From positions 1 through 32,944 of the IMG/VR virus record IMGVR_UViG_3300025880_000050: 32,944 nt of DNA. One strand, written 5' to 3'. This document shows, in pieces, positions 1 through 32,944 of the stretch (positions are counted from its first letter, which is position 1; each line of letters opens with the position of its first letter). Position numbers and translations under genes: made by a program. A model generated the notes under the pieces. It was not told the DNA's origin. It saw only the letters and a program-made list of their open reading frames with translations, and did not search any database. Origin of the DNA: a virus.

Positions 1-210
1 TCCAAAGATAAGTTCCTCCGTTTACGGTTGGTATCGGAAAAGATACCCCCGTAGTGTTTGCACCTGCCCCCGTAATAACAATCCATTCGCCATCTTGAAC
101 CGCTGAACCTCCACCATTCGGAATCCAATCTGCCGCAACATTGGAAGCTAACTCAGGGCCAGTAGCAACCCCTGTTGACACGTACTCGCTGGGGTTCTGA
201 TTGGTCTGGC
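1..210. repeat. Terminal repeat block 1, left copy (pairs with 32218-32427)
   Basis: 210 bp aligned without gaps to 32218-32427 with 7 mismatches by eye. It encodes the conserved domain of the tail fibre that follows the variable cassette. Confidence 0.93.
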
Positions 211-868
211 CGTCAGTGATTTCTATCTGGACTTCAGTCATTGTTACGTCAACTGGAAGACCGTTAACACCAGCGGAGTTGCCATAGACTCTCCAGTAAA
301 ACCCGCCGCTAGCCACGTTGCTGTATGATTCTGTAATAAGCTGGGGCGTTGGCCCCACAGTACGGTCTCGACTTACATCACCCGGATCACCGGGCCATAT
401 CCTTAATAATATTTCTCTTGAAGCCGACACTAGAAATCTAGATACGATTTTATGTCCTGTAGCAGCAGGAATAGTCGAAGAAAAACCGGAATAATCTGAA
501 CTTGTTGTCCCGCCGGGATCACAGGTAAATGTATTCCCTGATAAGAGAACAGGAGCTACCCCAGCCCCTGCCGCCGTTTTTTGCCATGTCGATGCACTCA
601 TGTTCTGAGAATTAGCAACCAGATTCTCTACCCGCCTAGCACCCTGAAACCTTGGCTCTTGGCTCTCGACCGTCTTGATCAAGCCTTCAAAGTCTTCAAA
701 TGTCGCCGCAGTAGCGCGGGTGAACGTGGGATCAGTGCCAGTGGTTGCTGCTAGGGTGTTCTGGCCCTTCCAGTAGAACAGTGGGACGGGTGATACTGGA
801 CCACCGCCTCCACCCTGAATGACTGACCTGATGGCTTCAACTATTGGAGTTCTGATGGCCGTTTTCAT
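1..868 (-). CDS. Tail fibre / receptor-binding protein, N-terminal part (runs off the left edge)
   Basis: The frame is open from an ATG at 868 to base 1, giving 289 codons and no stop, so the C-terminus is missing. The ATG overlaps the small-terminase stop (ATGA), which fixes the start. About residues 45-80 (FTRATAATFEDFEG ... PRFQGARRVENL) are the N-terminal motif common in phage tail proteins that precedes carbohydrate-binding-like jelly-roll domains. A domain of about 136 residues follows with no close copy in the window. Then comes a second domain beginning QTNQNPSEYVSTG that is almost identical to one in the fibre gene at the right edge. Base 1 is the first base of a codon, as is its equivalent 32218, so the two partial frames join in register into a protein of about 959 residues. 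Role (family knowledge): host-surface recognition. Confidence 0.8.
   Translation of the reverse strand, partial: MKTAIRTPIVEAIRSVIQGGGGGPVSPVPLFYWKGQNTLAATTGTDPTFTRATAATFEDFEGLIKTVESQEPRFQGARRVENLVANSQNMSASTWQKTAAGAGVAPVLLSGNTFTCDPGGTTSSDYSGFSSTIPAATGHKIVSRFLVSASREILLRIWPGDPGDVSRDRTVGPTPQLITESYSNVASGGFYWRVYGNSAGVNGLPVDVTMTEVQIEITDGQTNQNPSEYVSTGVATGPELASNVAADWIPNGGGSAVQDGEWIVITGAGANTTGVSFPIPTVNGGTYLW
620..726. repeat. Terminal repeat block 2, left copy (pairs with 32837-32943)
   Basis: 107 bp aligned without gaps to 32837-32943 with 9 mismatches. It encodes the fibre N-terminal segment FTRATAATFEDFEG ... RVENL. The offset to the right copy (32217) is the same as for block 1. Confidence 0.9.
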
Positions 869-1239
869 TCGATCACCTCAATGGTCCACTTCGTATCAAC
901 CTCGATAGCCCCGCCCTCGTTGCCTGTCAGTTCTTGTTTGTCGCTGTACCCGTGTTTGGTCAGCATGAGCTTGACAATGCTTGAGTTGAAGTCGCTGGTT
1001 AAACCGCCGTTAGTCAGTGCTAGATGTTGTCCATCCAGCAAACTTTCTACGATGTCCGAAAAATCAGCCTTTTCTGGGTCGTCAATCCAGAGGTAAATCG
1101 TTGATCTAGAACGGTTTAATGCTTTTGTGAGCCCTACAATTGAAGGAACTACATGCCCCATTTCAAGGTATCCACCATCTACATAGGCTTGGGCCTTAAT
1201 GAGGGTTTCATCATTGTAGTCGGTGGGTCTGCCTCTCAT
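865..1239 (-). CDS. Terminase small subunit (P22 gp3-like DNA-packaging protein)
   Basis: 124 aa. The small terminase recognises the packaging site on concatemeric phage DNA and hands it to the large subunit. An N-terminal GRPTDY start is followed by a helix-turn-helix at about residues 31-52 (SIVGLTKALNRSRSTIYLWI). The C-terminal stretch KLMLTKHGYSDKQELTGNEGG is the typical ending of the gp3-type packaging family. The gene is followed with a 4-nt overlap by the tail fibre. It is not next to the large terminase in this layout. If the window ends are joined, both lie in one leftward late unit with the fibre and small genes between them. By analogy with P22, the packaging site may lie in or near this gene (inference). 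Confidence 0.82.
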   Translation of the reverse strand: MRGRPTDYNDETLIKAQAYVDGGYLEMGHVVPSIVGLTKALNRSRSTIYLWIDDPEKADFSDIVESLLDGQHLALTNGGLTSDFNSSIVKLMLTKHGYSDKQELTGNEGGAIEVDTKWTIEVIE

Positions 1240-2608: not shown

Positions 2609-2750
2609 CTTTCACCGTCAAACACAGTGTGCTGAAGCCCTCATAATACCCTTTTTTGTTGATTATTTCCTCTGCTTTTAAGCATGAATCCATCGTTGGA
2701 TAGTCGCCAAATATTACGATAGTCCAGCCAATCAAGAATAATATTGTCAC
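2589..2750 (-). CDS. Small single-pass membrane protein upstream of the endolysin (53 aa)
   Basis: 53 aa from a GTG at 2750, which overlaps the NinG stop as GTGA and so is probably translationally coupled. It ends 20 nt inside the endolysin start. The first 15 residues (TILFLIGWTIVIFG) are a membrane segment or uncleaved signal anchor. The rest (DYPTMDSCLKAEEIINKKGY ...) is hydrophilic with two cysteines. Position and topology fit a lysis accessory, such as a small pinholin or inner-membrane spanin. No family is recognised, so this is inference. Confidence 0.6.
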   Translation of the reverse strand: MTILFLIGWTIVIFGDYPTMDSCLKAEEIINKKGYYEGFSTLCLTVKDDLGKL

Positions 2751-3241
2751 TGTAAAATCTCCTTAACCTTGCGCTTGTACAAGGCATTCAGTTCTTTCAG
2801 GTCGTCTATCGTGTAGCGTTTGGGCTCATGTGGACCCTCCAGCCAAGCTAATTTATCCGCGCCAATCTTGTCAATCAGCCTTATTCTGTATTCAACGATG
2901 TTGCCCGACAGTTCTCGATTGCATCGCTTACACTGTTTTGATGAATTTTCTTCTATAAAGCGAAGTTCTGGCGCAGATCCAACGCTCCTGTAGTGGCCGC
3001 AGTCCCACTGATTGGGGGTTGTGCTTGCCGGTTTGCCGCAACTAATGCATGGATCTGCGTTATCTCTCAGCCGAATAAAACGATTAAAAACCTGTTGAAC
3101 GTCCTTGACCCAATCTGACTTGGTCTTTAGCGCCAGCTTAATGCCCCGCTTCTCGACATTCCTAGCCTTCGCTACATGCTTCTTTGAGTCCTGAGTGTTC
3201 AGCCATTCAATTGAACATTTAACGCTGCAAACCCTGACCAT
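2747..3241 (-). CDS. ninG: NinG / Rap-like recombination nuclease
   Basis: 164 aa from the first ATG. The segment WDCGHYRSVGSAPELRFIEE followed by KQCKRCNRELSGN is the diagnostic HNH-like core of lambda NinG/Rap, which acts on branched recombination intermediates. The CISCGKPAS zinc motif precedes it. The ATG used here lies inside the N-terminal zinc finger: in the same frame upstream are CAWC (bases 3280-3269) and then CSVKC (residues 5-9 of the ATG form). The true protein should therefore start about 15-25 codons earlier, but no ATG/GTG/TTG exists in frame before the stop at 3325-3323. An ATG at 3342 with a good context is in the neighbouring frame. Confidence 0.85.
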   Translation of the reverse strand: MVRVCSVKCSIEWLNTQDSKKHVAKARNVEKRGIKLALKTKSDWVKDVQQVFNRFIRLRDNADPCISCGKPASTTPNQWDCGHYRSVGSAPELRFIEENSSKQCKRCNRELSGNIVEYRIRLIDKIGADKLAWLEGPHEPKRYTIDDLKELNALYKRKVKEILQ

Positions 3242-3331: not shown

Positions 3332-3529
3332 TCAAGACTCATGATTGCTCGAGTTTCGCGCCTTTGATTCTTCTGAATACCAAACGTCAGCCGCTTTGAT
3401 GATGTCATCAAGATATTGCATTGCTATAGGTTGAGGGTCTGCGCCTATTGGGAACCGCCTATCCATTAGAGCCAACTGATAGCATTGAATGATAATTTGC
3501 TGTTTCTCTGTCATGTTTTTCCTGCTCAT
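3332..3529 (-). CDS. Hypothetical protein (65 aa)
   Basis: 65 aa. The start overlaps the stop of the alanine-rich gene as ATGA, and an internal Met6 (MTEKQQIIIQCYQLALMDRRF) is an alternative start. Mostly helical and charged, with no cysteine pair or membrane segment. The repeated coupled overlaps place it inside the leftward nin-like operon. No family recognised. Confidence 0.6.
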   Translation of the reverse strand: MSRKNMTEKQQIIIQCYQLALMDRRFPIGADPQPIAMQYLDDIIKAADVWYSEESKARNSSNHES

Positions 3530-3756
3530 TTAATTAACTCCTCGTATCGTTTGACCAAATCAGCAACGTGACCAGCAGCACTACCAGCAGCAGCAACTTC
3601 GGCAGCAGCATAAGCATAGGCGGCATCAGCAGCCTCGGCAGCAGCAGCGGCAGCCCTAGCATCAGCCCTAGCATCAACTGAGTTAGCCCTTAATTCTTCT
3701 GTAGTAACGTCCTCGCCTGCCAACCATTTATTTACTAGTTCAATGTGTTCGTTCAT
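3526..3756 (-). CDS. Alanine-rich helical protein (76 aa)
   Basis: 76 aa. The middle (about residues 28-62) is almost all A, D, Y, E and R: VDARADARAAAAAAEAADAA, then YAYAAAEVAAAG. This arises from a GCA/GCC-rich stretch at about 3575-3675. The flanks (NEHIELVNKWLAGEDVTTEE and VADLVKRYEELIK) look like normal helices, so this is a real gene with an expandable low-complexity core. Shine-Dalgarno GGAG lies upstream of the ATG. Proteins of this type recur in phage early regions (recalled) without known function. Confidence 0.62.
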   Translation of the reverse strand: MNEHIELVNKWLAGEDVTTEELRANSVDARADARAAAAAAEAADAAYAYAAAEVAAAGSAAGHVADLVKRYEELIK

Positions 3757-3771
3757 TTGTTTAACTCCAAA

Positions 3772-3861
3772 TTAGTGCTGGTTTTTTGTGAGGACAGGAT
3801 TACCAGCAACCTGCATTTCAGGGAACAACCCCTTCCTCGGTTTATAGTCTTGTCGCGCCAT
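3772..3861 (-). CDS. Very short ORF (29 aa), uncertain
   Basis: An ATG at 3861, overlapping the end of the upstream gene by 20 nt, opens 29 codons (MARQDYKPRKGLFPEMQVAG ...). It fills an otherwise empty 85-bp gap in a densely packed operon. I see no Shine-Dalgarno, so it may be untranslated spacer. Confidence 0.25.
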   Translation of the reverse strand: MARQDYKPRKGLFPEMQVAGNPVLTKNQH

Positions 3862-7790: not shown

Positions 7791-7910
7791 ATGATCAACG
7801 CAACTCCAGCAAAAAGAACTGTATTTACATCAGTCTGCACATTGTCTAACGAGACCCGACTGGCCGTGTATTACGCAAACGTTAACCGCTTAAAAAAAGG
7901 ATCAAAATGA
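7791..7910 (+). CDS. Small basic protein coupled to the ERF gene (39 aa)
   Basis: 39 aa (MINATPAKRTVFTSVCTLSN, then ETRLAVYYANVNRLKKGSK). It starts one base after the upstream stop codon, with AGGAAA close by, and its TGA overlaps the ERF ATG as ATGA. The tight spacing on both sides makes it a real gene despite its size. No family recognised. Confidence 0.62.
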   Translation: MINATPAKRTVFTSVCTLSNETRLAVYYANVNRLKKGSK

Positions 7911-8527
7911 ATCACTCATCAGCTATCAACGAAATTGCATTAGCCCTGTCAAAGGCTCAAGAGGCTATACAGGATGCTGAGAAGTCATCAGCTAACCCCT
8001 TCTTTAAAACCAAATACGCTGACCTCAGTTCAGTGCTGAACGAAATCAGGGCGGTATTCCCAAGGAATGGTTTGGCGCTAGTTCAGTCACCCTTCACAGC
8101 CGAAAACGGCAACATCGGTGTGACTACGATGGTTGTTCACAGCAGTGGCCAATGGATGTCTGACAGCATTGACATCCCAGCGCAGGGCAAGAACTTAGCG
8201 CAAGAGTCGGGATCTGTAATTACCTATCTTCGCCGGTACTCAGCATCAGCTTTTGCAGGCATTGCTCAAGCAGATTCCGATGCAAACCTTGGCACATCAA
8301 AAGCCAGCAATACGGCACCAGTCGTTAACCTCAAGGGTCCATTGATCAGCAAGGATCAAATAGAAGAAATTAACAACTTGATGATTGAAACGTCTACAAA
8401 CGAAGCTGCTTTCTGTCAGTTTCTTGGCGTTGAATCTGTTGCAAAGATGCCGCAGAACCTGCACGACAAGGCTGTTGCCGCATTGACAAAAAAGCTCGAG
8501 ATTATGGAGAAATCTGATGTTAGTTAA
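7907..8527 (+). CDS. ERF-family single-strand annealing protein
   Basis: 206 aa. ERF-type recombinases anneal complementary single strands in RecA-independent phage recombination. The family core runs from about residue 10: KAQEAIQDAEKSSANPFFKTKYADLSSVLN, then the FPRNGLALVQSP strand, then GSVITYLRRYSASAFAGIAQ, with the S-x-x-T-Y-x-R-R-Y segment that marks the family. The remainder is a linker and a helical tail. It is followed with an 11-nt overlap by a YqaJ exonuclease: the exonuclease makes single strands and ERF pairs them. This system also helps form the concatemers needed for headful packaging. Confidence 0.9.
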   Translation: MNHSSAINEIALALSKAQEAIQDAEKSSANPFFKTKYADLSSVLNEIRAVFPRNGLALVQSPFTAENGNIGVTTMVVHSSGQWMSDSIDIPAQGKNLAQESGSVITYLRRYSASAFAGIAQADSDANLGTSKASNTAPVVNLKGPLISKDQIEEINNLMIETSTNEAAFCQFLGVESVAKMPQNLHDKAVAALTKKLEIMEKSDVS

Positions 8528-9386
8528 AAACATGGAGCAGGGATCACTTGAATGGCACGAATATCGCGCTAACCCTGCCATTCGTAGCGCAAGCGAGGCG
8601 GCAATCATCATGGATTGCGCCCCAAAGTACTGGAATACCAGCAAACGCATCCTCTGGGAGCAAAAGCAGGGTCTGCGAGGGTCTAACGTCGATCCCAGCA
8701 ATCCTGCGATTATGCGCGGTAATCGTCTAGAGCCACTGGCTAGAGCATGTTTTAACCACAGTTTTAGGGTGCAGACTGAGCCGGTAGTTGGGCTCGAGGG
8801 TGACTATTCAGCATCGCTGGACGGGCATGGCATTGATAAACAGGGACAATCAATCAAGGTTGAGATTAAATGCCCGATGAGCGAAAACAGCGAGGTTTGG
8901 AAATTAGCGGCAAAGGGTGAGATTGCACCGTATTACCACTGGCAAATGGTTCATCAGAGCCTTGTGGTGCCTACTGAGCAGACTTTCTTCTATGTCTACT
9001 TATCGGACAACCAGTGCATCACTATTCCTCACATCGCCTCTGAGAGCGACATACAGGCTTTAAAAGATGCTTGGGACGACTTCTATGCATCTGAGCCTGA
9101 ACCCGACTGGGAGGACAGGACAGACGATGACATGCGGATCTTAGTCGAACGTCATAGGGATCTTGTGCAGCAGAAATCTATGTTGGACGTAGAGTTAAAG
9201 CTGGCTGAGAAGGCGTTAAAGGCAGAGGCTGGTGATGGCAACGTCATGGCCTTTGGTGCAAGGATTCAGAAGATCAGCAGGAAGGGAACCATTGATTACA
9301 GCCGTATCCCTGAGATTGAGGGGGTCAACGTCGAGGATTATCGCAAACCTTTGGCTTCTTATCAAAAGATCACGCATGGAAAATAG
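8517..9386 (+). CDS. YqaJ-type viral recombinase / lambda-exonuclease-like
   Basis: 289 aa. The protein degrades one strand of a DNA end to expose single strands for ERF. Motifs of the PD-(D/E)xK exonuclease fold are in order: S-LEWHEYR at the start, GNRLEP (E72), GDYSASLDG (D102), VEIKCP (E116, K118) and HWQMVHQ (Q143/Q147). The C-terminal third has a helical arm (LVERHRDLVQQKSMLDVELK) and a conserved ending with IDYSRIPEI. A GGAG Shine-Dalgarno inside the ERF end supports the first ATG. The next gene starts immediately after its stop. Confidence 0.9.
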   Translation: MLVKNMEQGSLEWHEYRANPAIRSASEAAIIMDCAPKYWNTSKRILWEQKQGLRGSNVDPSNPAIMRGNRLEPLARACFNHSFRVQTEPVVGLEGDYSASLDGHGIDKQGQSIKVEIKCPMSENSEVWKLAAKGEIAPYYHWQMVHQSLVVPTEQTFFYVYLSDNQCITIPHIASESDIQALKDAWDDFYASEPEPDWEDRTDDDMRILVERHRDLVQQKSMLDVELKLAEKALKAEAGDGNVMAFGARIQKISRKGTIDYSRIPEIEGVNVEDYRKPLASYQKITHGK

Positions 9387-23137: not shown

Positions 23138-23458
23138 TTATTCGATTAGAGTTCCGTTAATAGATTGGATGAACGATGGCATCCTTGCATCTAGCTCCAT
23201 GTTGACCTGATTCTTCCAGTTAATAGTGATAGTCCCAAAAGCCTCGCTGATCTTGTTGAAGTAGTCAGTAACGTAATCATCAGCAGTCCACATCTTCCCA
23301 TCCTTATCAATTCCGGTGTCCTTTACCCTGATCCCTTGGGCAAATACTTTTTCATCGCTCATGTTAAGCAGGGCTAGATACCAATCGAGATCAGCGGAAG
23401 ATCCAGACATTTTCCAATAGGTATCGTAGGTAGTTCCGTCTTTTTTAAATTTGTGCAT
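23138..23458 (-). CDS. Hypothetical protein between ART-like gene and scaffold (106 aa)
   Basis: 106 aa. A mixed alpha/beta composition with many aromatic residues (KKDGTTYDTYWKMSG, DYFNKISEAFG, TITINWKNQVNMELD) suggests a small globular protein. The start is 22 nt after the ART-like gene ends. The pairing with a putative toxin-type enzyme raises the idea of a partner or immunity protein, but nothing in the sequence proves it. It could equally be a minor virion protein. Confidence 0.55.
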   Translation of the reverse strand: MHKFKKDGTTYDTYWKMSGSSADLDWYLALLNMSDEKVFAQGIRVKDTGIDKDGKMWTADDYVTDYFNKISEAFGTITINWKNQVNMELDARMPSFIQSINGTLIE

Positions 23459-23480
23459 TTTACAATCCTTGAGTTAACAA

Positions 23481-24800
23481 TTACGCGCCAGAATCATCTT
23501 CGTAAAGATCCTGTGGATTCTGACCTGTCTGACGGGCCAACATCGCTGCTGCTGCTGGGATGGCTATGCCGTACTTCCTAGCGATTGAGATTAGATTCTC
23601 GTCAAACACGACATAGTTAGATGTGCCTCCGTCAGCGCCACGGCTGAATCCGTCTTTGTAGCGGATGCCTTTGATGCCTGCATTTTGCAGCGCGGAAGTG
23701 GCTTCTGCTTGCGTTTTATTACCACGAAGCAATCCGTTATAAAATCCCTCGCCACTCTGCCCAGCGTTTGCCTCAAACCTTGCTTGCATCATGTCAGCAG
23801 GTGTCGGACTTAACCCTTCTTCTTTATATCTTGCTGCTTTAACGGATGTGGCTTCTTTTGGGAATATGCTCTGCTGACTCAACGGCAGATTCCAATCAAG
23901 GAACTCATCAGGGGAAGCGTCTATTTCTACTTGGTACATGGAGCCTTTGTTGTCCATCTGAACCCCAAGCCTCTCTAGCACCTTTTTGACCGGAGAAGGC
24001 GCGGAATCAATATCATCAACGTACTCAGACCAACCAAAAGCCATTTTCTCCCTGTCGATAAGGCCAAGCCCCTGCCTTTTCGCTTCTTCTGCTATTTCTT
24101 CTGTGATTCTGTTAGGCGATAGCTTTACACCATCTTTCCCAATCCATGCCGCCCCAGATACTCTGTCCTTATACCCCCTAGCCACATCCTCAGACTCGGC
24201 AAAGTACAGGCCATGACCATAAGCCTGCGCTCCCTCGCCGGTTCCTATTTTCGACATATTAAAACGTCCCAGAGGATGTTCTTTCAGCATTTTAGCGCCT
24301 TCGGGTATCGCGTCATCCATAGACTGATAGACTCTAGCCCCGTCAGGCATCTGTAGCTCCCTTACAGGGGGGAAGTCGTGAGGTGATCCGTGATAGGCTT
24401 TTATCTTTTCTCTTGCTACTTCAGCACCGGCATTGACTTGGCTTCGGCTTGGGACAAACGGCACCGCGCCTAAAGCAGCAGCACCAACCATTCCAGCCTT
24501 GTCATACCACGGAACCTGATCCCAATTCTCTCGAATGTCAGTGTAGTCAGCATAAAGCCCAGCAGCATCGCCAACGCCAGGCACCATAGATGTCGCCAGA
24601 GCAGCCTGATCTTCTGTCCTCATGCCCCTAACCGCGCCAACAATAACGCTACCTTCAACCAACCTTGATAGATGGGTCTTAGCTGTATCAATATCCCTAG
24701 CAAAGTTACTGAATGCCCTGCCTAGAACACCCTGAACCTCCTCTGGAGGCATGTCATCAGGGAATCCTATGGTGGCATCATTGTATCTAACGATTGGCAA
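23481..24800 (-). CDS. Putative ADP-ribosyltransferase (ART-PolyVal type) in the virion operon
   Basis: 439 aa. The N-terminus (NDATIGFPDDMPPEEVQGVL) is a motif shared by many phage virion proteins. A glycine/alanine-rich segment follows (VPGVGDAAGLYADYTDIREN, then KAGMVGAAALGAVPFVPS, residues 73-118). The C-terminal region, about 133-410, fits ADP-ribosyltransferases of polyvalent phage proteins: AYHGSPHDF (H137), GHGLYFAES (Y199), AGIKGIRYKDG (374-384) and NYVVFDEN (395-402). H-Y are the NAD-binding residues in the H-Y-E class; the third catalytic residue I cannot place with certainty. The gene overlaps the portal by 14 nt and so is co-translated with capsid parts. It is likely packaged or ejected (inference). 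Confidence 0.72.
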   Translation of the reverse strand: MPIVRYNDATIGFPDDMPPEEVQGVLGRAFSNFARDIDTAKTHLSRLVEGSVIVGAVRGMRTEDQAALATSMVPGVGDAAGLYADYTDIRENWDQVPWYDKAGMVGAAALGAVPFVPSRSQVNAGAEVAREKIKAYHGSPHDFPPVRELQMPDGARVYQSMDDAIPEGAKMLKEHPLGRFNMSKIGTGEGAQAYGHGLYFAESEDVARGYKDRVSGAAWIGKDGVKLSPNRITEEIAEEAKRQGLGLIDREKMAFGWSEYVDDIDSAPSPVKKVLERLGVQMDNKGSMYQVEIDASPDEFLDWNLPLSQQSIFPKEATSVKAARYKEEGLSPTPADMMQARFEANAGQSGEGFYNGLLRGNKTQAEATSALQNAGIKGIRYKDGFSRGADGGTSNYVVFDENLISIARKYGIAIPAAAAMLARQTGQNPQDLYEDDSGA

Positions 24801-27234
24801 CTATCTGTCCTGTCTGTGGGTCATAGAGAAAGTCTGCTGGAGATCCAACGCCTGCCATGCCTGCGCTGGGAGAAGCTACCTGCTGGATATCAATCATCTC
24901 CTGCAAGTTCTTCATCTGCTGCATTGCGGCATCACCAACCAAGGTTGGATCAATGGCAAACTGTGTCGCGCTGATCAACTTCTCCTGACCTGCGCGGTTG
25001 GCCTCGTCAATGATTGTGATGGGCAATCCCAATGTCTGAGCCTGTACCACCAGAGAATCAAGATAGTCCTTGTTAGCCAGTATTGCCTCACGGTTAGTCC
25101 TTACCGACTGATGACCAGCGTCAGATTCAGCCTTAATCATCTTCGCCTGAGAGTCCATTATCTTGGCCTGAGAGTCGAGCATCTTAGACTCGCCGCTCTG
25201 CTGGAAGTTAGCCGCCTGACCGTTTAGAGAGCCAATCTGGGCGGTTAGCAGTTGAGCCTGCAACCCTTCCATGATCTCTGCCTCTATTTGAGGCTTGGCC
25301 TGCTCGATAATCGCCTGATCCCTTGCAATCCCGTATTCTTCAGCCTCTTCCTCGGTCGGTATTAACTGACCCGTCTGGAACTTGCTTGTTTTCAGACGCT
25401 TGGCCATTTCTTCCATGCCAGGGCCATCCATGTTTCCAACAATCAAATCATTAGCAACAGCCCTCAATTCTGGATCTGCCTCAGACAGTCTCAGCAAGCC
25501 ATCGGCTGATTCCTGACGCTGGGTGGCAAACGATGGTCCACTCTTAACATTCACGCCATAAGATCCTGCCGTCATGTCATTAATCATGACCCTAGTGCCT
25601 GACTGCTCGTCTAGCACCACCTTGTTGATAGACACGAAGTCGGATGTCTCGTCTGGCTTGATGATCTGGACCTGTCGATCAGTGTCATAAATGTAGCCCA
25701 TTAGGTCGTTGATCACCGTGTAGCTGTGGTGAATCGACTTCAGCAGGTTATCCATGTACAGGAATGACCCGCTATCCATGCCGATAGCGCCTTGCTTGAT
25801 AGCCTCGCCAGAGCGTGGATCTAACGCAGTCGCATCAGTAGTTGTTTGGCCAGATGAGCCCATCACAGCGTAGATGTTGGTTCTCATGTCGTTAACAAGC
25901 TGAATCAATGACTGCTGGACGATTGGACCCTGATTCGGGAATGGTGGCTGGACAGCGCCTGGTGATCCACCCAAAGGCTCCCCGTTCTCATCTAGTGCGT
26001 TGTACTGCTGCACCGCATTCCTTGAGGTATTCATATCCCTCAGATCAGCTTCATGGCCAGCAATCTGCTCTGGTGTCATCCATACAAAATCAGCAGGACC
26101 AAGCGCAGCCTTCTCAGCAATAGCAGAGATGCCGAAGTTGAACAGTCTCGCAGGGTCTTTGGTGTTGCGGATCTTGCCGTGAACCAGTTGGGTGCCGCCG
26201 ATTGTTAGCGTTTCGCCGAATGCTGGGATTAAGGGAAAATACTTGCCCTTATAATCCTTGTTGGAGTCTAGGATAGACTGGCCGTTGAGCAGATACCGTT
26301 CAATCTTAAAGCCGTCACTGGTGCGTTGTTTGACCACCGTGATCTGGTTTTGAAAGATAGGTTCTCCAGTAGCCTGATCAATAGCCTGCTGGCCAAACTC
26401 ATCGAGGACCGGAGTCCCTCTGGCCATATCGTCAAGAATGTCCTTAACGTCATCAAAGTAGACTACGTCACCCGTTGATAATTGTAGGATCTTTCGCCTA
26501 ACGGACACCTTGCGGTAATAGATTGCCAGCCTTACGCCGTCATCCGTATACCAGCCCTCATTGGGGCGAATGTCGCTCATCTCATCAGTAAAATCGGACT
26601 CTTCAGCCTTCGGGAACATTGCCGCATAGACTGACTTATCAAACGTGGCCAGCAGAAAGCAGAATGGCGCATCAGACTTGTCATAACGCTCCGCTGGACC
26701 AAAAAACATGCTTGTGGTGGCATCTTTGACAGCCTTAATCGTAACCTTCTGCTCAAATACATCATCATCAACATGCTCTGTTGTGATCTGCCATCCACCA
26801 TATCCACCAATCAGCATTTCTTGATAGGCGTTGTCATAGACATCCCTAGCGTAGGATTCCTTCTCGATGTGCCTGATTAGCCCCTGCCTGACCTCTGCAA
26901 CCTCCTTAGAGGCGTTTTCGCCTTCAGGTAATACCATTGGGCCAATGTCTGTACCTCGCTGCTCACCGATGATTTTGGTGATAACAGGTGATGCCAGATT
27001 GACTTGGAATCTTGGCCTGTCGTCGGTCGCGTTGGTGTTTGCCAGCCCTGTACCGCTTGTTGACTCCCAGAACTGATCCAGCCACTGGCCACCCTGACCC
27101 ATGTCAAATATCTTATCTTCCTGCGATAACTCTCTCGATAGCTTTTCACGCGAGTAGGTTTGATCGAAGCGCGTCATGGCTTCTTCGTGTATTGCCCCCT
27201 GCGTCTTTGCAGAGGTGTATTTAACCGCTTTCAT
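24787..27234 (-). CDS. Portal protein, P22-like
   Basis: 815 aa, longer than the 725 of P22. The dodecameric portal is the DNA channel at one vertex. Characteristic sequences are the N-terminal REKLSRELSQEDKIFDMGQG, MLIGGYGGWQITTEHVDDD, and the long helical crown region near residues 640-760, where MLDSQAKIMDSQAKMIKAES has an internal repeat MxDSQAK. That crown forms the barrel of P22 portals. It starts 4 nt after the large terminase, the usual order. Confidence 0.88.
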   Translation of the reverse strand: MKAVKYTSAKTQGAIHEEAMTRFDQTYSREKLSRELSQEDKIFDMGQGGQWLDQFWESTSGTGLANTNATDDRPRFQVNLASPVITKIIGEQRGTDIGPMVLPEGENASKEVAEVRQGLIRHIEKESYARDVYDNAYQEMLIGGYGGWQITTEHVDDDVFEQKVTIKAVKDATTSMFFGPAERYDKSDAPFCFLLATFDKSVYAAMFPKAEESDFTDEMSDIRPNEGWYTDDGVRLAIYYRKVSVRRKILQLSTGDVVYFDDVKDILDDMARGTPVLDEFGQQAIDQATGEPIFQNQITVVKQRTSDGFKIERYLLNGQSILDSNKDYKGKYFPLIPAFGETLTIGGTQLVHGKIRNTKDPARLFNFGISAIAEKAALGPADFVWMTPEQIAGHEADLRDMNTSRNAVQQYNALDENGEPLGGSPGAVQPPFPNQGPIVQQSLIQLVNDMRTNIYAVMGSSGQTTTDATALDPRSGEAIKQGAIGMDSGSFLYMDNLLKSIHHSYTVINDLMGYIYDTDRQVQIIKPDETSDFVSINKVVLDEQSGTRVMINDMTAGSYGVNVKSGPSFATQRQESADGLLRLSEADPELRAVANDLIVGNMDGPGMEEMAKRLKTSKFQTGQLIPTEEEAEEYGIARDQAIIEQAKPQIEAEIMEGLQAQLLTAQIGSLNGQAANFQQSGESKMLDSQAKIMDSQAKMIKAESDAGHQSVRTNREAILANKDYLDSLVVQAQTLGLPITIIDEANRAGQEKLISATQFAIDPTLVGDAAMQQMKNLQEMIDIQQVASPSAGMAGVGSPADFLYDPQTGQIVANR

Positions 27235-27238
27235 CTAT

Positions 27239-28726
27239 TTACATCCTCTGGGAGAAGGTCATCTTCACATGTTTAGGCTTAACGCTTTTCTTCGCTGGTG
27301 AAAACTCATTCATCATCATGGGGTCAGCCATGTTTGGTGAGGGTATCCCTAGCATCAGCATCTCTTTCTTGGTCATAATCTGTTTCTTGCCGTTATTGTT
27401 TGATTTTCGAGGTATTCGGCAAACCTCTGAGCGGATCTCGTCCATCTGCTTGATGTCGGACGACAGGCTAATCATGTCGTCACTATTAAGATTCATCGGC
27501 ACAACGCCAGCATTTAGCGCCTTAATCGCCTTGTAGGTGTTCTCAAACCTGTCAGCCAGAGCGTAATACCTTGACGCTCGTCGGTTAACGAAGGTTTCTC
27601 TGTTAGTCCTGCGCTTTGATGGGTCATTGGAGTCAACCGGCTGATAAATAGCATCAGGGTTATCCGCTGTCTCTGCACCGTTAAACAAATGGTAATCAGT
27701 GCGGGTATTCTGCAAGAGCCTATCAACATCGCGCTTCAATCCAGTACCCATGCCGCCAATGTCCCACGTAAAGTGGTCAGCGCCAGCGTTTAACGCCTTT
27801 TCAATAGCCCAGTCAAGTTTGTCATTGATGTCACCTTGGTCGGTATCGCAGATGTCTAAGTAAACAGAGCCATGACGTAGCGCATACCCCGCTGCATCCT
27901 TGCCCTCGTCAGATGGGTCAAACGATGCAAACTTTGCACCTTCTGGGTTAAATCCAAGCCTGATATGCGCGTCAATAGCCGCATCAAACCACTCTACGGG
28001 AATGATTGAGCCTGCTACCTCATCATAGAACTCACCAAGCCAGATGTGGCGATACTCAGCCGTGGTCATATGCGCTTCATCATATGCCCGTTCACTTTCA
28101 AGCGTTTCTGGAAAGAAAGGTGAGTCAGTGTAATTAATGAAGATGATCAGGTGTAAGTCATCCTCATACACGCCATCGCGCAGTAATTCCTTGTGGAACG
28201 GCAGGATAAACCGCTGGGAGAACGGATCTGCTCGACTGCGAGGGTTGGCCAGCATCCAAATCTCTGTCCCTTCCTCTCGAAAGGTAGGCGTTAACGCTCT
28301 CAGTGACTTGTAGCTGATCGTCTGGGCCTCATCGACCAAAGCCCTCTGGAAGCCATACATGCTCTTGATGCCTTCAGGATTCCGCGCCATACCCCTGAAC
28401 TTGAAGGCTTCAACCTTCTCGCCACCTCGATCAACCAGTATCTTGTTGTTCTGGACCTCGAATCCATGCAACCCCATCCGCTCAATCTCACCAGCCAGCA
28501 AAGCGTGGGAACTGTCATCAATAGAATTCTGGAACTCCCTGAAGCAGGCAGTCTTGATACCCCTTGTCTGGGCATCCATCAGGCATATACCACCAGCCGT
28601 CATGCTCTTGGTTGAGCCACGGCCACCGATGATGACGATAAACCGCTTAGACTTACGCACAACCTTACCGTCTACCTTATGATAGAGGTGGTCATACAGC
28701 TTCTTGGCGATTGTCATGCCAGGCAT
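27239..28726 (-). CDS. Terminase large subunit (ATPase/nuclease)
   Basis: 495 aa (499 in P22). The P-loop is GGRGSTKS (residues 34-41) and Walker B is ALVDEAQ (D132, E133). The C-terminal nuclease has D270 in ASFDPSDEGKD and D322 in FTWDIGGMGTG, the acidic pair of the RNase H-like fold. It pumps DNA into the procapsid and cuts at headful length. It is directly followed by portal, scaffold and coat. The small subunit is at the other end of the window, which makes sense only if the ends join or the fibre gene is inserted between them. Confidence 0.92.
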   Translation of the reverse strand: MPGMTIAKKLYDHLYHKVDGKVVRKSKRFIVIIGGRGSTKSMTAGGICLMDAQTRGIKTACFREFQNSIDDSSHALLAGEIERMGLHGFEVQNNKILVDRGGEKVEAFKFRGMARNPEGIKSMYGFQRALVDEAQTISYKSLRALTPTFREEGTEIWMLANPRSRADPFSQRFILPFHKELLRDGVYEDDLHLIIFINYTDSPFFPETLESERAYDEAHMTTAEYRHIWLGEFYDEVAGSIIPVEWFDAAIDAHIRLGFNPEGAKFASFDPSDEGKDAAGYALRHGSVYLDICDTDQGDINDKLDWAIEKALNAGADHFTWDIGGMGTGLKRDVDRLLQNTRTDYHLFNGAETADNPDAIYQPVDSNDPSKRRTNRETFVNRRASRYYALADRFENTYKAIKALNAGVVPMNLNSDDMISLSSDIKQMDEIRSEVCRIPRKSNNNGKKQIMTKKEMLMLGIPSPNMADPMMMNEFSPAKKSVKPKHVKMTFSQRM

Positions 28727-29032
28727 TTAAGCGCCTAGTGCTTCAATCGCGCCTGGTACCTGCCAATCTATTGCCGGAGATGTTGCGCCGGTTAGCGTTA
28801 GCCTGATCTTCACCCGTGGGGCAAGGTTATACATATTGTCATCAGCAGATGTCATCGTTATAGCTACGCCAGTCTGTAGCAGGCTGGATGTATTGCCATT
28901 GATCTGTTTTTCGACAGCTACTGTACCGCCCCCGAATGTTCCAGCCACAAAGATGTTGGTCTTAGCGCCTTCTTTAGTTGTCACTGTCAGCCATTCTGTT
29001 GAGCCGTCAGCCGTGAGTCTACCTTGAGCCAT
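28727..29032 (-). CDS. Small beta-rich protein upstream of the large terminase (101 aa)
   Basis: 101 aa. Many Thr/Val strands (RLTADGSTEWLTVTTKEGAK, then TFGGGTVAVEKQINGNTS, and IRLTLTGATSPAIDW) fit a small jelly-roll or decoration protein. It stops next to the large terminase start. Its codon use looks like its neighbours. Capsid decoration or a fibre-linked protein are both possible. Confidence 0.6.
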   Translation of the reverse strand: MAQGRLTADGSTEWLTVTTKEGAKTNIFVAGTFGGGTVAVEKQINGNTSSLLQTGVAITMTSADDNMYNLAPRVKIRLTLTGATSPAIDWQVPGAIEALGA

Positions 29033-29067: not shown

Positions 29068-29304
29068 CTAATGCTGAGATTTTGCTGTCCTGCTCCCGAT
29101 CCTGGCGCTCTTTAAGTTAGCTTCCAAGTCTCTTGTCGCGTTGATGCAGAAAAGACTCGCGCCTAGCAGCGTCACACAGTAATCGACTCGTCCAGATGCG
29201 CCTGCGGCTATGGTCTTAGGATCTGAATTAGTCGGTAGTGAAGAACACCATGTCATTACCGTCATTAGTCCAGCCAGTAAACAGGCTATTAATAGCATTC
29301 TCAT
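29068..29304 (-). CDS. Small membrane or secreted protein with a frame-shifted duplicate tail (78 aa)
   Basis: 78 aa. The start MRMLLIACLLAGLMTVMTWC is a signal peptide or membrane anchor with a poor lipobox. YCVTLLGASLFC near residue 50 is a second hydrophobic patch. From N63 onward the frame runs through a DNA copy of the 3' end of the neighbouring 88-aa gene. In the -1 frame these bases encode LKERQDREQDSKISALEKKS, very similar to the end of that protein, and stop at 29054-29056. The present ending is thus probably a frameshift product, by mutation, slippage or sequence error. Confidence 0.5.
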   Translation of the reverse strand: MRMLLIACLLAGLMTVMTWCSSLPTNSDPKTIAAGASGRVDYCVTLLGASLFCINATRDLEANLKSARIGSRTAKSQH

Positions 29305-29316
29305 GTACTCACTCCT

Positions 29317-29583
29317 CTATGATTTTTTTTCTAGCGCCTGTATTTTTATATCCTGCTCTCGATCAGTCCGTTCTTTAAGCTCAATAAACATGGGTAGTGG
29401 CCCTAGCAGCGTTTTAATCTCTTTAAGATCCACCCTGATCTCTTCCTGCGGAGCCTCAAGCAGGGCTATGCGTTTATCGAGGTCAGCAAAGTACCAGAAT
29501 GCTCCCAACGTCAGTGCTATCGTTGTTGTTAAGTGTCCAGCGTCAATCGTCTTGCGGAAATGCCACCTGTTGTCGTCGCTCAT
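29317..29583 (-). CDS. Holin-like single-span membrane protein with a coiled coil (88 aa)
   Basis: 88 aa. A short cytoplasmic start (MSDDNRWHFRKTIDAGH), one transmembrane helix (LTTTIALTLGAFWYFAD, about residues 18-34), then a charged coiled coil (IALLEAPQEEIRVDLKEIKT) and an ending DREQDIKIQALEKKS. It resembles small phage membrane proteins annotated as holins or XhlA-like lysis proteins. The topology is visible; the holin role is inference. It overlaps the upstream gene by 4 nt. The endolysin is in the early-side cluster at 2.2-2.6 kb, so lysis genes are split. Confidence 0.6.
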   Translation of the reverse strand: MSDDNRWHFRKTIDAGHLTTTIALTLGAFWYFADLDKRIALLEAPQEEIRVDLKEIKTLLGPLPMFIELKERTDREQDIKIQALEKKS

Positions 29584-30209
29584 AATAGATAACTCGCATC
29601 AAACCCGTTTGGTAGGGCGAAATACTGTGAGGGTATTGTTGGGGGTGCAGTTGGATCTTCAGGGTCTGGCTGCGGTGATTGGTCGTAAATCGAGTCGTAC
29701 AAGGCTCTCATTGCCGCATCCGGCGGAACGTCCTGCGTAATCGGATCTCGTGTGACGGTGGCTGCACCCAGTAGTACGGCCCCCAGAGTAGTCTCGTAAG
29801 GCGGAGGCGTGATGGTTTCAGTCGTCGGCTCGTTCTCATAAATAGGGAACCCGTTCTCATCCACCCGTCCTGTATCGACCCAGTTATCAGTCGTTACAGT
29901 GTATGACGGTGGTTGCACCCAGTAGTACGGCCCCCACAATAAGTTACCATCTTCATCAGTCTCTTGTTCTTTGTAGCCAAAGACCACTTCTGGAGTGGTG
30001 ATTGTGATGTAGTCCAGTGCCTCGATCTCTTCAAGCCCTTCAAGGCTGCTGATGATGATCATGGACTCTGTGGGGTCTACGGGAAGGTTGTGGCAGACAT
30101 AGTTGCCACTTCTGCCGTCTATCATGCCTCTCAGGGGTGATTCCTCGTCAACCAAGCCTGTAGCTATCAGAGCGTTGAGGTCGGTGCATATGCTGATGTA
30201 GAAGCTCAT
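29580..30209 (-). CDS. Fibre-linked hypothetical protein with an out-of-frame internal duplication (209 aa)
   Basis: 209 aa, lying directly after the tail fibre with a 4-nt overlap. The N-terminal half (SICTDLNALIATGLVDEESP ... GRSGNYVCHNLPV) is alpha/beta. The C-terminal half is rich in Pro, Asp, Thr and Tyr (VQPPSYTVTTDNWVDTGRVD). Two 36-bp copies of the same DNA are read in different frames, once as LWGPYYWVQPPSY and once as LGAVLLGAATV. It may be a fibre chaperone or a baseplate-proximal part, but no family is recognised. Confidence 0.55.
   Translation of the reverse strand: MSFYISICTDLNALIATGLVDEESPLRGMIDGRSGNYVCHNLPVDPTESMIIISSLEGLEEIEALDYITITTPEVVFGYKEQETDEDGNLLWGPYYWVQPPSYTVTTDNWVDTGRVDENGFPIYENEPTTETITPPPYETTLGAVLLGAATVTRDPITQDVPPDAAMRALYDSIYDQSPQPDPEDPTAPPTIPSQYFALPNGFDASYLL
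29750..29785. repeat. 36-bp direct repeat, copy 1 (frame read as LGAVLLGAATV)
   Basis: Matches 29901-29936 with 2 mismatches; offset 151 bp, not a multiple of three. Confidence 0.85.
29901..29936. repeat. 36-bp direct repeat, copy 2 (frame read as WGPYYWVQPPSY)
   Basis: The same 36-bp unit as 29750-29785, read in a different frame in the same gene. Confidence 0.85.
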
Positions 30210-32944
30210 AAGTCACCTACTTCCTCAGCCGTTAGTTCGGTGTTAAATATCTTGAGGTTTCTAGACATCATTCCCGATGCACCTCCAGCTCCCCCGCCGA
30301 CTATAAGATCCCCTGATGTAAGCGGTGCAGCAAACGAGCCAGAAGCCGTGGCTACCCCGTGATAAACATCTTTTGCAGAGCCTCCCCAAACTATTGCGCT
30401 TTGAACAGGATTGTTAAGCCTTGATACACCAGACACCCCCGTCACGCCGCTGTTGTTATTTGTCGTATCAGTAATGCCAGTGACTGAATACATTATAAAT
30501 CCACCAGTCCCGATTATTGACGAGTTGCCGGCATCAACACTGTGTGCTCTGCTGGCCTCAAGAGACAATGTCCCAATCGTGTAATCAATAGCACCGGATT
30601 CAGCCACGGTCAGAACGTCAGCATTCCTCGTGACGGCTGTAGTTGTAGTGGGGATGTAGGATGTTGGGTATGTGCCTAGTTCTACTTGGGCTCCCCAGAC
30701 AAGGATGTCCTCGCCTAATACGCCTGAAAAGTGGGGCATTCCATTGGTCAGAAGAGTTGGAACAGCAACATCAGAAATAAAAGGAACAATGTAGCCACTA
30801 GTAGTTCCGACATTTCCCGATATCCATACTCGATAAATACCGTTTCCAGCATCTTCACAGCCAGAGCCAATTATTGTTCCTGAATTAGAGCCGACTCCCG
30901 TATGCGTTACTAAACCACTAGAGAGGTCTACAACGACTGTAATATAATCTTGCGCCGTCCCAAAGACCATCCCGCCAAAACCAGCACCATCGTCCTTCAT
31001 GTAAACGCTATAGGTGTAGTTTGTGCCTGTTGTTACGGTTAGCAGTTTGTACACAGCATGCCAATTATTAGCAGTGGTTATTGCCACCCGATCCATCGTA
31101 GTTGTGCCATCAGGGGCAACAGCGACATTTGGGACTATTGTTATTTGACCTAATTGCCATTGATCAAATTCTTCACTATAAATAGCCAGATTAGTACTAG
31201 CCTTCTCAGCCAGATACCCGAATGGCCCACTCTCATCTACCGGAGGCTGGAAAATGGAGGCATTGCCTTCTAGTGTCCATGTCTCGCCTGATGTCGATGA
31301 TACGAAGGTGCTGCCGCTGACGTATGAACCCGGCGTGAAATCAACTACGGGTGTTGTGCCGTCGATCTCGTTGAATACCTGACCACGGTAAAAACTGCCA
31401 TCGTAGGGGTAGGTGCCTGTATTCAAAGCCCATGCGGCTACTAAGAAAGACGCGGTTGTTACAGCGATTGATGTTGCACCACCAGCAGGGTTCTGAGTTG
31501 CGCCTTGTTGTGTGTAGTCGCTAATAGCAGGGGCTTCTAGATTGCCATCAGCAGTAAAGAACTTAATGTCACCTGTAGCAGCGTCAAGGGTAACTCTCCA
31601 CCAACCTAATTCGCCTACGGCAAAAGGAACTGCGCTTGTGAGAGTTGTGCTTAAAACTGTAGAGCCGTCTTCAGAATAATAAAATAGAAATGCGCCACTA
31701 GCAGCGTAATAAAGTTGAAATGCTCTTTGCCCTGCCCCATCTTTGCCAAACAGCATATTTGTGTTTTGACTATCGCGAGTAGCCCTAACCCTGATGTCCA
31801 ACTCAGGCCAAGTCGTCACGACATTAGGCGTAGAGAAGTAATCACCACCTACCCCATGCAGATCACCAAACTGGGTGTTAGCGCGTGTTAGCGGAGACCC
31901 TACGGCCTCTGTGACCACGTTGGACGTGACTGTGTTAGCGTTGAGCGTGTTGAAATACTCGACACCGTCTACGTTAGCGCCGTGTTCTGCTTGTTTGACT
32001 GATACGTTTCTAATACGAGCGGTTAAACCTACGCCTCTTGGGTGGGCTATTATGTATGAAGGTGAAGTTGCGTCTGTACAAACTCCACTATAGGTAACTG
32101 TTTGGCTACTTGATATAAGACTATAACTGCTGGGCGTAAAAGCATCCCCGCCGCCTGCGGTGATGACGGATATTGAACGGTCAAACGCAGTTGCCGTCAG
32201 TAGCTCAACCTCCATACTCCAAAGATAGGTTCCGCCGTTTACGGTTGGTATCGGAAGAGATACCCCCGTAGTGTGTGCCCCCGCCCCCGTAATAACAATC
32301 CATTCGCCATCCTGAACCGCTGAACCTCCACCATTCGGAATCCAATCTGCCGCAACATTGGAAGCTAACTCAGGGCCAGTAGCAACCCCTGTTGACACGT
32401 ACTCGCTGGGGTTCTGATTGGTCTGGCTTGATGGAATCCACTCGACCATTATATTTGTCAAGGTTAAAGTTGCCGCTACTTGAGAATACGCAGCAAACTG
32501 AATACTCGTACCAGTACTGTTAGCCGTAATAGCGGTTATTCTTTGGACAGTCGAGGTTAAACTAGTTCCGACTTGAGACTTAGACTGTGTAAGTGCGGCT
32601 GATCCTTCAATCCTCAAATCTATCTCAGCGGCAGAGGTTGGAGATCCAGACACAAGCGCCATATCCGCAGAAACACGGTAAGACCCTGAACCTAACGGCT
32701 TGGCAGGAACTGTCATACTTTCAAAAATATAACCGTTGGGTGTGCCGTCATAGACCATTGTAGTAGCGTTACTAGCAACCGCACCATTACCTTTTGTATA
32801 CCCAGCAACTGTTATATCCTCTGAGTTAATCGTCATCAGATTCTCTACCCGCCTAGCACCCTGAAACCTTGGTTCACTGCTCTCGACCGTCCTAATAACG
32901 CCTTCAAAGTCCTCAAATGTCGCCGCAGTAGCGCGGGTGAACGG
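30206..32944 (-). CDS. Multidomain tail fibre / receptor-binding protein (runs off the right edge)
   Basis: The frame is open to the right edge, so the ATG at 32836 is internal: upstream codons give FTRATAATFEDFEGVIRTVE ... RVENL, as in the left-edge gene. Domains in order: attachment stem, a jelly-roll of the variable cassette, a second jelly-roll (QTNQNPSEYVSTG ... VSVKQAEHG), a concanavalin/laminin-G-like domain (LDIRVRATRDSQNTNMLFGK to FKFFTADG region), a third jelly-roll of the common phage type (NLAIYSEEFDQWQLG ... VELGTYPTSYIPTT) and a C-terminal beta domain. These folds bind sugars, so it is the main receptor-binding protein. If joined to the left-edge piece it is about 959 aa. Confidence 0.82.
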   Translation of the reverse strand, partial: PFTRATAATFEDFEGVIRTVESSEPRFQGARRVENLMTINSEDITVAGYTKGNGAVASNATTMVYDGTPNGYIFESMTVPAKPLGSGSYRVSADMALVSGSPTSAAEIDLRIEGSAALTQSKSQVGTSLTSTVQRITAITANSTGTSIQFAAYSQVAATLTLTNIMVEWIPSSQTNQNPSEYVSTGVATGPELASNVAADWIPNGGGSAVQDGEWIVITGAGAHTTGVSLPIPTVNGGTYLWSMEVELLTATAFDRSISVITAGGGDAFTPSSYSLISSSQTVTYSGVCTDATSPSYIIAHPRGVGLTARIRNVSVKQAEHGANVDGVEYFNTLNANTVTSNVVTEAVGSPLTRANTQFGDLHGVGGDYFSTPNVVTTWPELDIRVRATRDSQNTNMLFGKDGAGQRAFQLYYAASGAFLFYYSEDGSTVLSTTLTSAVPFAVGELGWWRVTLDAATGDIKFFTADGNLEAPAISDYTQQGATQNPAGGATSIAVTTASFLVAAWALNTGTYPYDGSFYRGQVFNEIDGTTPVVDFTPGSYVSGSTFVSSTSGETWTLEGNASIFQPPVDESGPFGYLAEKASTNLAIYSEEFDQWQLGQITIVPNVAVAPDGTTTMDRVAITTANNWHAVYKLLTVTTGTNYTYSVYMKDDGAGFGGMVFGTAQDYITVVVDLSSGLVTHTGVGSNSGTIIGSGCEDAGNGIYRVWISGNVGTTSGYIVPFISDVAVPTLLTNGMPHFSGVLGEDILVWGAQVELGTYPTSYIPTTTTAVTRNADVLTVAESGAIDYTIGTLSLEASRAHSVDAGNSSIIGTGGFIMYSVTGITDTTNNNSGVTGVSGVSRLNNPVQSAIVWGGSAKDVYHGVATASGSFAAPLTSGDLIVGGGAGGASGMMSRNLKIFNTELTAEEVGDL
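32218..32427. repeat. Terminal repeat block 1, right copy (pairs with 1-210)
   Basis: 210 bp, no gaps and 7 mismatches against the left end. Confidence 0.93.
32837..32943. repeat. Terminal repeat block 2, right copy (pairs with 620-726)
   Basis: 107 bp, no gaps, 9 mismatches; the 409 bp between the blocks shows no alignable DNA similarity. Confidence 0.9.

Follow-up and report, generated by a model that had tools for sequence, protein, structure and literature searches.

A P22-like phage contig that probably ends on two alleles of an exchangeable tail-fibre domain

The contig and its divided fibre gene

The sequence analysed here (the window) is the whole of the IMG/VR contig IMGVR_UViG_3300025880_000050, 32,944 bases in length, which IMG/VR classes as linear. 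Genes on the minus strand follow one another in the order small terminase subunit (TerS), tail fibre, a 209-aa gene, an 88-aa gene, other small genes, large terminase subunit (TerL), portal and coat, with the fibre placed between TerS and the lysis-TerL genes. The fibre gene is divided between the two contig ends, its 5' part carrying allele A of a first variable slot and its 3' part carrying allele B (Table 1). A PHROG tail protein match was obtained over aa 576-910 of the part that bears allele B. The 209-aa gene directly after the fibre perhaps encodes a fibre chaperone.

Table 1. Coordinates of fibre features, packaging genes and recombination genes in the window
Feature	Position	Strand	Remarks
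Slot 2 start, left end	1..148	-	same domain as at right end
Tail-fibre gene 5' part, allele A	2..868	-	289 aa; runs off left contig end
Linker 2, allele A copy	149..211	-	TNQNPSEYVSTGVATGPE
Slot 1, allele A	211..619	-	CBM-like jelly roll (predicted); a search of viral_contigs with this slot alone gave no close relative
Linker 1, allele A copy	620..726	-	TFTRATAATFEDFEG...RFQGARRVENL
TerS	865..1239	-	GP3_package, PF16677; stop/start overlap with fibre start
NinG, lambda Rap-like	2747..3241	-	PF05766
ERF single-strand annealing protein	7907..8527	+	PF04404
YqaJ-like recombination exonuclease	8517..9386	+	PF09588
TerL	27239..28726	-	Terminase_3
Gene directly after fibre	29580..30209	-	209 aa; stop/start overlap with fibre; travels with fibre
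Tail-fibre gene 3' part, allele B	30206..32944	-	912 aa; open at right contig end
Slot 5 (approximate limits)	30256..30609	-	
Linker 5	30610..30699	-	
Slot 4 (approximate limits)	30700..31186	-	differs from L004
Linker 4	31187..31284	-	
Slot 3 (approximate limits)	31285..31903	-	
Linker 3	31904..32008	-	
Slot 2 (approximate limits)	32009..32364	-	swapped in L005, L006, L070, L075
Linker 2, allele B copy	32365..32430	-	DNA conserved among relatives
Slot 1, allele B	32428..32836	-	CBM-like jelly roll (predicted); DNA 100% identical to L004
Linker 1, allele B copy	32837..32943	-	identical to L005 over 104 bp; exact to L004

Comparison of the two contig ends

Both contig ends were aligned at a constant offset of 32217, a multiple of 3, giving an end repeat of 1-727 with 32218-32944. 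A sequence-only reading had taken the ends for one locus present twice, with a middle segment of no DNA similarity, and both points were borne out. Positions 1-210 and 32218-32427 agreed at 203 of 210 bases (96.7% identity), and positions 620-726 and 32837-32943 at 98 of 107 (91.6%); the 409 bp between them (211-619 and 32428-32836) agreed at 107 positions only (26.2%), which is chance level. The next-best direct repeats in the window reached at most 41 bp, and the 727-bp end repeat is therefore far beyond chance. The first block comprises linker 2 and the start of the next domain, common to both alleles, and at the protein level the two ends share this start of slot 2 at 96% identity over 49 residues. 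Flanking sequence that touches the cassette was free of mismatches (115 bp at 96-210 and about 36 bp at 620-655), mismatches lying further out. As had been claimed, the 107-bp block carried proportionally more mismatches (9/107) than the 210-bp block (7/210), although the difference in divergence is at most suggestive (Fisher p = 0.06).

The frames were found to join in register, as predicted, the 912 aa of the right end and 47 aa from the left end making one gene product of 959 aa. The equal length of the cassettes also stood (409 bp each, with a linker-to-linker distance of 147 aa in both alleles), but in the set of 17 fibre sequences that have both anchors, A and B among them, this distance was 140-168 aa and mostly 140-149 aa. 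Equal length is thus unremarkable, and its use as a sign of a special exchange was dropped. At the outermost position of the repeat, base 727 and base 32944 differ; this last base of the contig turns a linker-1 Thr codon from ACG to CCG, the Thr being kept in nearly all related fibres, and the change is probably an end-of-contig error.

Slots, linkers and swap borders

Fibre DNA was compared with that of relatives other than L004, and similarity was mostly confined to conserved blocks at about 2-105, 515-580, 937-1041, 1661-1758, 2246-2335 and from 2690 on (numbered in the sense direction on the copy at the right end). The intervening sequence makes up at least five slots of domain size, and for every slot there are relatives in which it is replaced. 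The linkers formed by the blocks are about 60-105 bp long, with 80-100% DNA identity, and are conserved across unrelated backbones, and the N-terminal anchor of the fibre varies with the phage backbone and is constant from FYWKG/TFTRAT on. For slot 1, about 15 alleles were counted among the fibres compared, most pairs having less than 65% aa identity; allele B was 32-39% identical in amino acids to slot 1 of L070, L074, L075, L076, L077 and L079. A DNA search of cultured phages with positions 1-868 returned no match, and the fibre protein, searched against cultured phages, gave nothing better than weak matches, at 28-34% identity and confined to aa 558-799 of the part with allele B. A search of genome_contigs for the host gave only two distant hits, MAG contigs of Moraniibacteriota at 32-37% identity, and these were not accepted as the host.

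Borders of exchange could be placed where near-identical genomes part. L004 and L005 come from different metagenomes and represent one SU10-like phage; they agree at 99.8% over 6,860 bp, up to the exact edge of linker 1 and slot 1, where they diverge. L070 and L075 agree at 99.9% over 4,567 bp and separate within linker 2; a slot-1 border is thus a breakpoint in both pairs. L075 and L076 have different backbones and hold the linker 1-slot 1-linker 2 segment in common at 96% identity over 638 bp. Alleles A and B of the window part at these borders too, where slot 1 meets linker 1 and linker 2. Two further contigs, L007 and L008, stop within linker 1, at positions corresponding to window 640 and 648.

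These alignments show the fibre to be a multi-slot mosaic of exchangeable domains and not one variable module. The proposal of two alleles of a single hypervariable module was accordingly retained in part: the L004/L005 swap at the same boundary and the CBM-like folds predicted for both cassettes speak for it, whereas variation in at least five slots speaks against a single module. That A and B are two alleles of one hypervariable slot is well supported.

Predicted fold of the cassettes

Structures predicted for both cassettes were all-beta, with pLDDT of 74.9 for model B and 61.6 for model A, which makes allele A the weaker case. In Foldseek searches both matched CBM4/16/22 jelly rolls among the first PDB matches (E about 2e-5 to 1e-4), and the jelly-roll-like fold suggested for both from sequence was in this way supported at the level of predicted structures. 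A Pfam scan of the fibre gave no CBM family match, with neither cassette matched, and the cassettes are therefore described as CBM-like by fold only. On the strength of the predicted fold, sugar binding by both cassettes is likely. Slot 4 is probably a second CBM-like domain, since the corresponding C-terminal region of the same fibre ORF gave a weaker second match to the slot-1 profile in several relatives.

Backbone and genome form

P22-type genes of the window include TerS (PF16677), portal (P22_portal, PF16510), coat (P22_CoatProtein, PF11651) and a head-closure protein. P22-type headful packaging, as established for P22, gives a circularly permuted genome, and circular permutation of this phage would follow from the P22 type of its packaging and virion genes. 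A circularly permuted, terminally redundant genome is in keeping with the overlapping contig ends; the linear class given by IMG/VR speaks against it. Siblings of the backbone were traced through the coat and TerS/lysis genes and comprise L014 (99.9%), L018, L080, L081 and L085; none of them spans the fibre, all stopping before or inside the fibre locus or the next gene. L085, 91.7% identical over 26045-29032, keeps the order fibre end-next gene-lysis-TerL-portal with a different fibre end, from which it follows that the position of the fibre is native and its content variable. In L081 (88% over 29115-29624) the 209-aa gene likewise adjoins 29317-29583.

The proposed genome of about 32.2 kb, circular or circularly permuted, is indirectly supported by the P22-type genes, the position of the fibre and the gene order of L085, the closed circle itself being putative. 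We consider it probable, with odds of about two in three, that the contig represents a P22-like headful phage of about 32.2 kb, read once round the circle and overlapping itself by 727 bp in the fibre gene, on two alleles of a swappable module. A and B would then occur together in one population of this phage.

Sharing with an SU10-like phage and alternative explanations

The right end of the window equals L004 exactly over 877 bp and over 105 bp, with one mismatch between these runs. In all, L004 matches the window almost perfectly at 31961-32943 and 29701-30640, the second segment being the fibre end and next gene, identical over 940 bp; slots 3 and 4 differ between the two. L004 has an SU10-like portal and adaptor whereas the backbone of the window is P22-like, and the fetched DNA of L004 had no match to the window outside the fibre locus. 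Judged from sequence, this sharing would reflect either a very recent exchange between unrelated phages or an assembly path through the fibre of a co-occurring phage. If the latter, the contig could be chimeric, its left end (allele A and TerS) being native and its right end joined from an unrelated phage of the L004 type, with A and B not alleles of one phage. The near-exact identity to L004 fits such a join, as do linker conservation sufficient to mislead a short-read assembler and the breaks at the fibre locus in contigs of several lineages. We nevertheless regard a chimera as unlikely, because slot 2, a variable slot in its own right, is common to A and B, and because the mosaic of the window differs from that of L004 (with slots 3 and 4 unlike, it is not simply the L004 fibre); these two observations favour alleles over an assembly path. 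Moreover, the fibre-next gene-lysis-TerL order is native in the sibling L085, and between the distinct contigs L004 and L005 the swaps are genuine.

Two complete tandem fibre genes in one genome, with the intervening sequence absent from the contig, would also leave two partial copies of one gene at the contig ends. This arrangement is considerably less probable than a chimera: eleven related records, up to 42.9 kb in size, each hold a single linker 1-slot 1 module, the 5' and 3' fibre parts of the window complement each other in register, and the window contains no second 3' fibre end. It is also very improbable that the ends record a terminal-redundancy heterozygote, in which recombination during mixed infection has left a single packaged molecule with different alleles, A and B, at its two termini. 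T4 is known to form heterozygotes of this kind, and headful packaging with a P22-type TerS permits them; headful ends, however, spread round the map, a population contig would not end just at the fibre, and allele variation combined with shared linkers would halt an assembler there anyway. A metagenome contig is unlikely to reflect the recombined terminal redundancy that had been offered as a second option. A programmed switch, whether an inversion shufflon or a diversity-generating retroelement, usually targets just such a hypervariable fibre module, and is the least credible source of the alleles: the window holds no further copy of A or B and no long inverted copy elsewhere, a Pfam scan of the 29 window proteins detected no reverse transcriptase or site-specific recombinase, and replacement of a whole domain at 26% identity differs from the point mutagenesis of a retroelement. 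The preferred reading is one P22-like genome whose contig ends on two slot-1 alleles.

Recombination genes and proposed course of exchange

ERF, YqaJ-like exonuclease and NinG genes are present in the window and plausibly constitute exchange machinery. With the Erf/exonuclease of phage D3, identical DNA and DNA of 78% identity recombine about as efficiently as with lambda Red, and phage Rad52-like recombinases dominate exchange over short or diverged homology (PMC3945230). At their length and identity, the fibre linkers are suitable recombination substrates, and the ERF/YqaJ system may have made the swaps. The fibre is a chain of carbohydrate-binding-like domains on linkers of near-constant DNA, and on the two-allele reading these linkers would serve in a co-infected cell as homology arms between phages, single domains or blocks being traded by homologous recombination; the ERF/YqaJ single-strand-annealing system that the phage encodes would probably drive it. 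Each swap would lead the fibre to recognise a different sugar and would be expected to alter host range. The population would hold both A and B, and an assembly taken once round the circle would end on both.

A broader proposal, which we put forward tentatively and think unlikely, is that linkers are kept at the DNA level as recombination ports, through which lineages in one water body draw slot by slot on a common pool of sugar-binding domains. If true, this would amount to more than fibre sharing by descent with occasional transfer.

Relation to known systems

Host recognition is the fastest-changing part of phages, and swapping of fibre modules for host recognition is already known. The present case is well resolved; what it adds are borders resolved to the base, a fibre with several slots, and sequence shared exactly between different backbones. 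In T-even distal tail-fibre adhesins, as cited in PMC7468147, variable segments recombine between conserved motifs within the gene (Tetart et al. 1998 J Mol Biol 282:543). The exchange described here resembles that system in trading variable segments between conserved motifs inside a gene, and differs from it in involving whole CBM-like domains, at least five slots, a podophage fibre and partners with unrelated backbones. In cryoconite phages, recruitment of reads to individual phages revealed flexible tail-fibre metagenomic islands (Bellas et al. 2020, PMC7468147). There too, several highly diverged homologous variants of a fibre domain coexist in a near-identical core genome and reassort independently, whereas here contigs were compared, breakpoints were placed at base level at conserved linkers, and sharing extends across phage lineages.

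The unrelated Alteromonas phages A5, V22 and P24 share a ten-gene host-recognition region with about 35-67% protein similarity (PMC10579305). As in those phages, a fibre and its neighbouring gene are common to phages of different families; here, in contrast, identity is exact at the DNA level over 877 and 940 bp and mosaicism runs domain by domain. Recently emerged domain mosaicism of receptor-binding proteins, rarely across taxonomic families, was described by Smug et al. (2023, PMC10684548); the fibre described here shares with it the contemporary shuffling of tail-fibre domains, and differs in that it is a single instance, whose linkers are conserved in DNA and whose slot borders were mapped.

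With slots, linkers, P22-like/SU10-like sharing and recombination genes in the same genome, the unit of change can be seen at base level. The linkers are usable for counting receptor alleles in metagenomes, and breaks and overlaps of contigs at fibre genes are explained, which bears on completeness calls in viral databases.

Other variable or shared segments

Within the 209-aa gene a 41-bp stretch occurs twice (29750-29790 and 29901-29941, at a spacing of 151 bp), the copies being translated in different frames as LLWGPYYWVQPPSY and TLGAVLLGAATVT. The second copy is present in L004 and L005 and absent from L085, L075, L087 and L088; it is an insertion made by out-of-frame copying of the neighbouring stretch. 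In L085 (900-1795), the genes of the lysis region ahead of TerL have 90% identity with those of L079 and stand in place of the genes at window 29068-29583; in that sibling the region neighbouring the fibre is swapped as well. In L018, similarity is patchy across window 23138-24373, with 97-98% identity on both sides; this second variable spot covers most of a 439-aa ORF (23481-24800). A large SU10-like gene contains a long run of VDPTEP/IDPTEP repeats (L004 13487-13958, L005 15239-15676), whose alignments are shifted between the two contigs. Finally, 298 bp around an alanine-rich small ORF (3526-3756) are 98% identical between window 3525-3822 and L007 3427-3724, the other fetched L007 DNA matching the window being linker 1 (94.5%) and 170 bp at 75% only; positions 3525-3822 are a second recently shared segment, in this case with L007.
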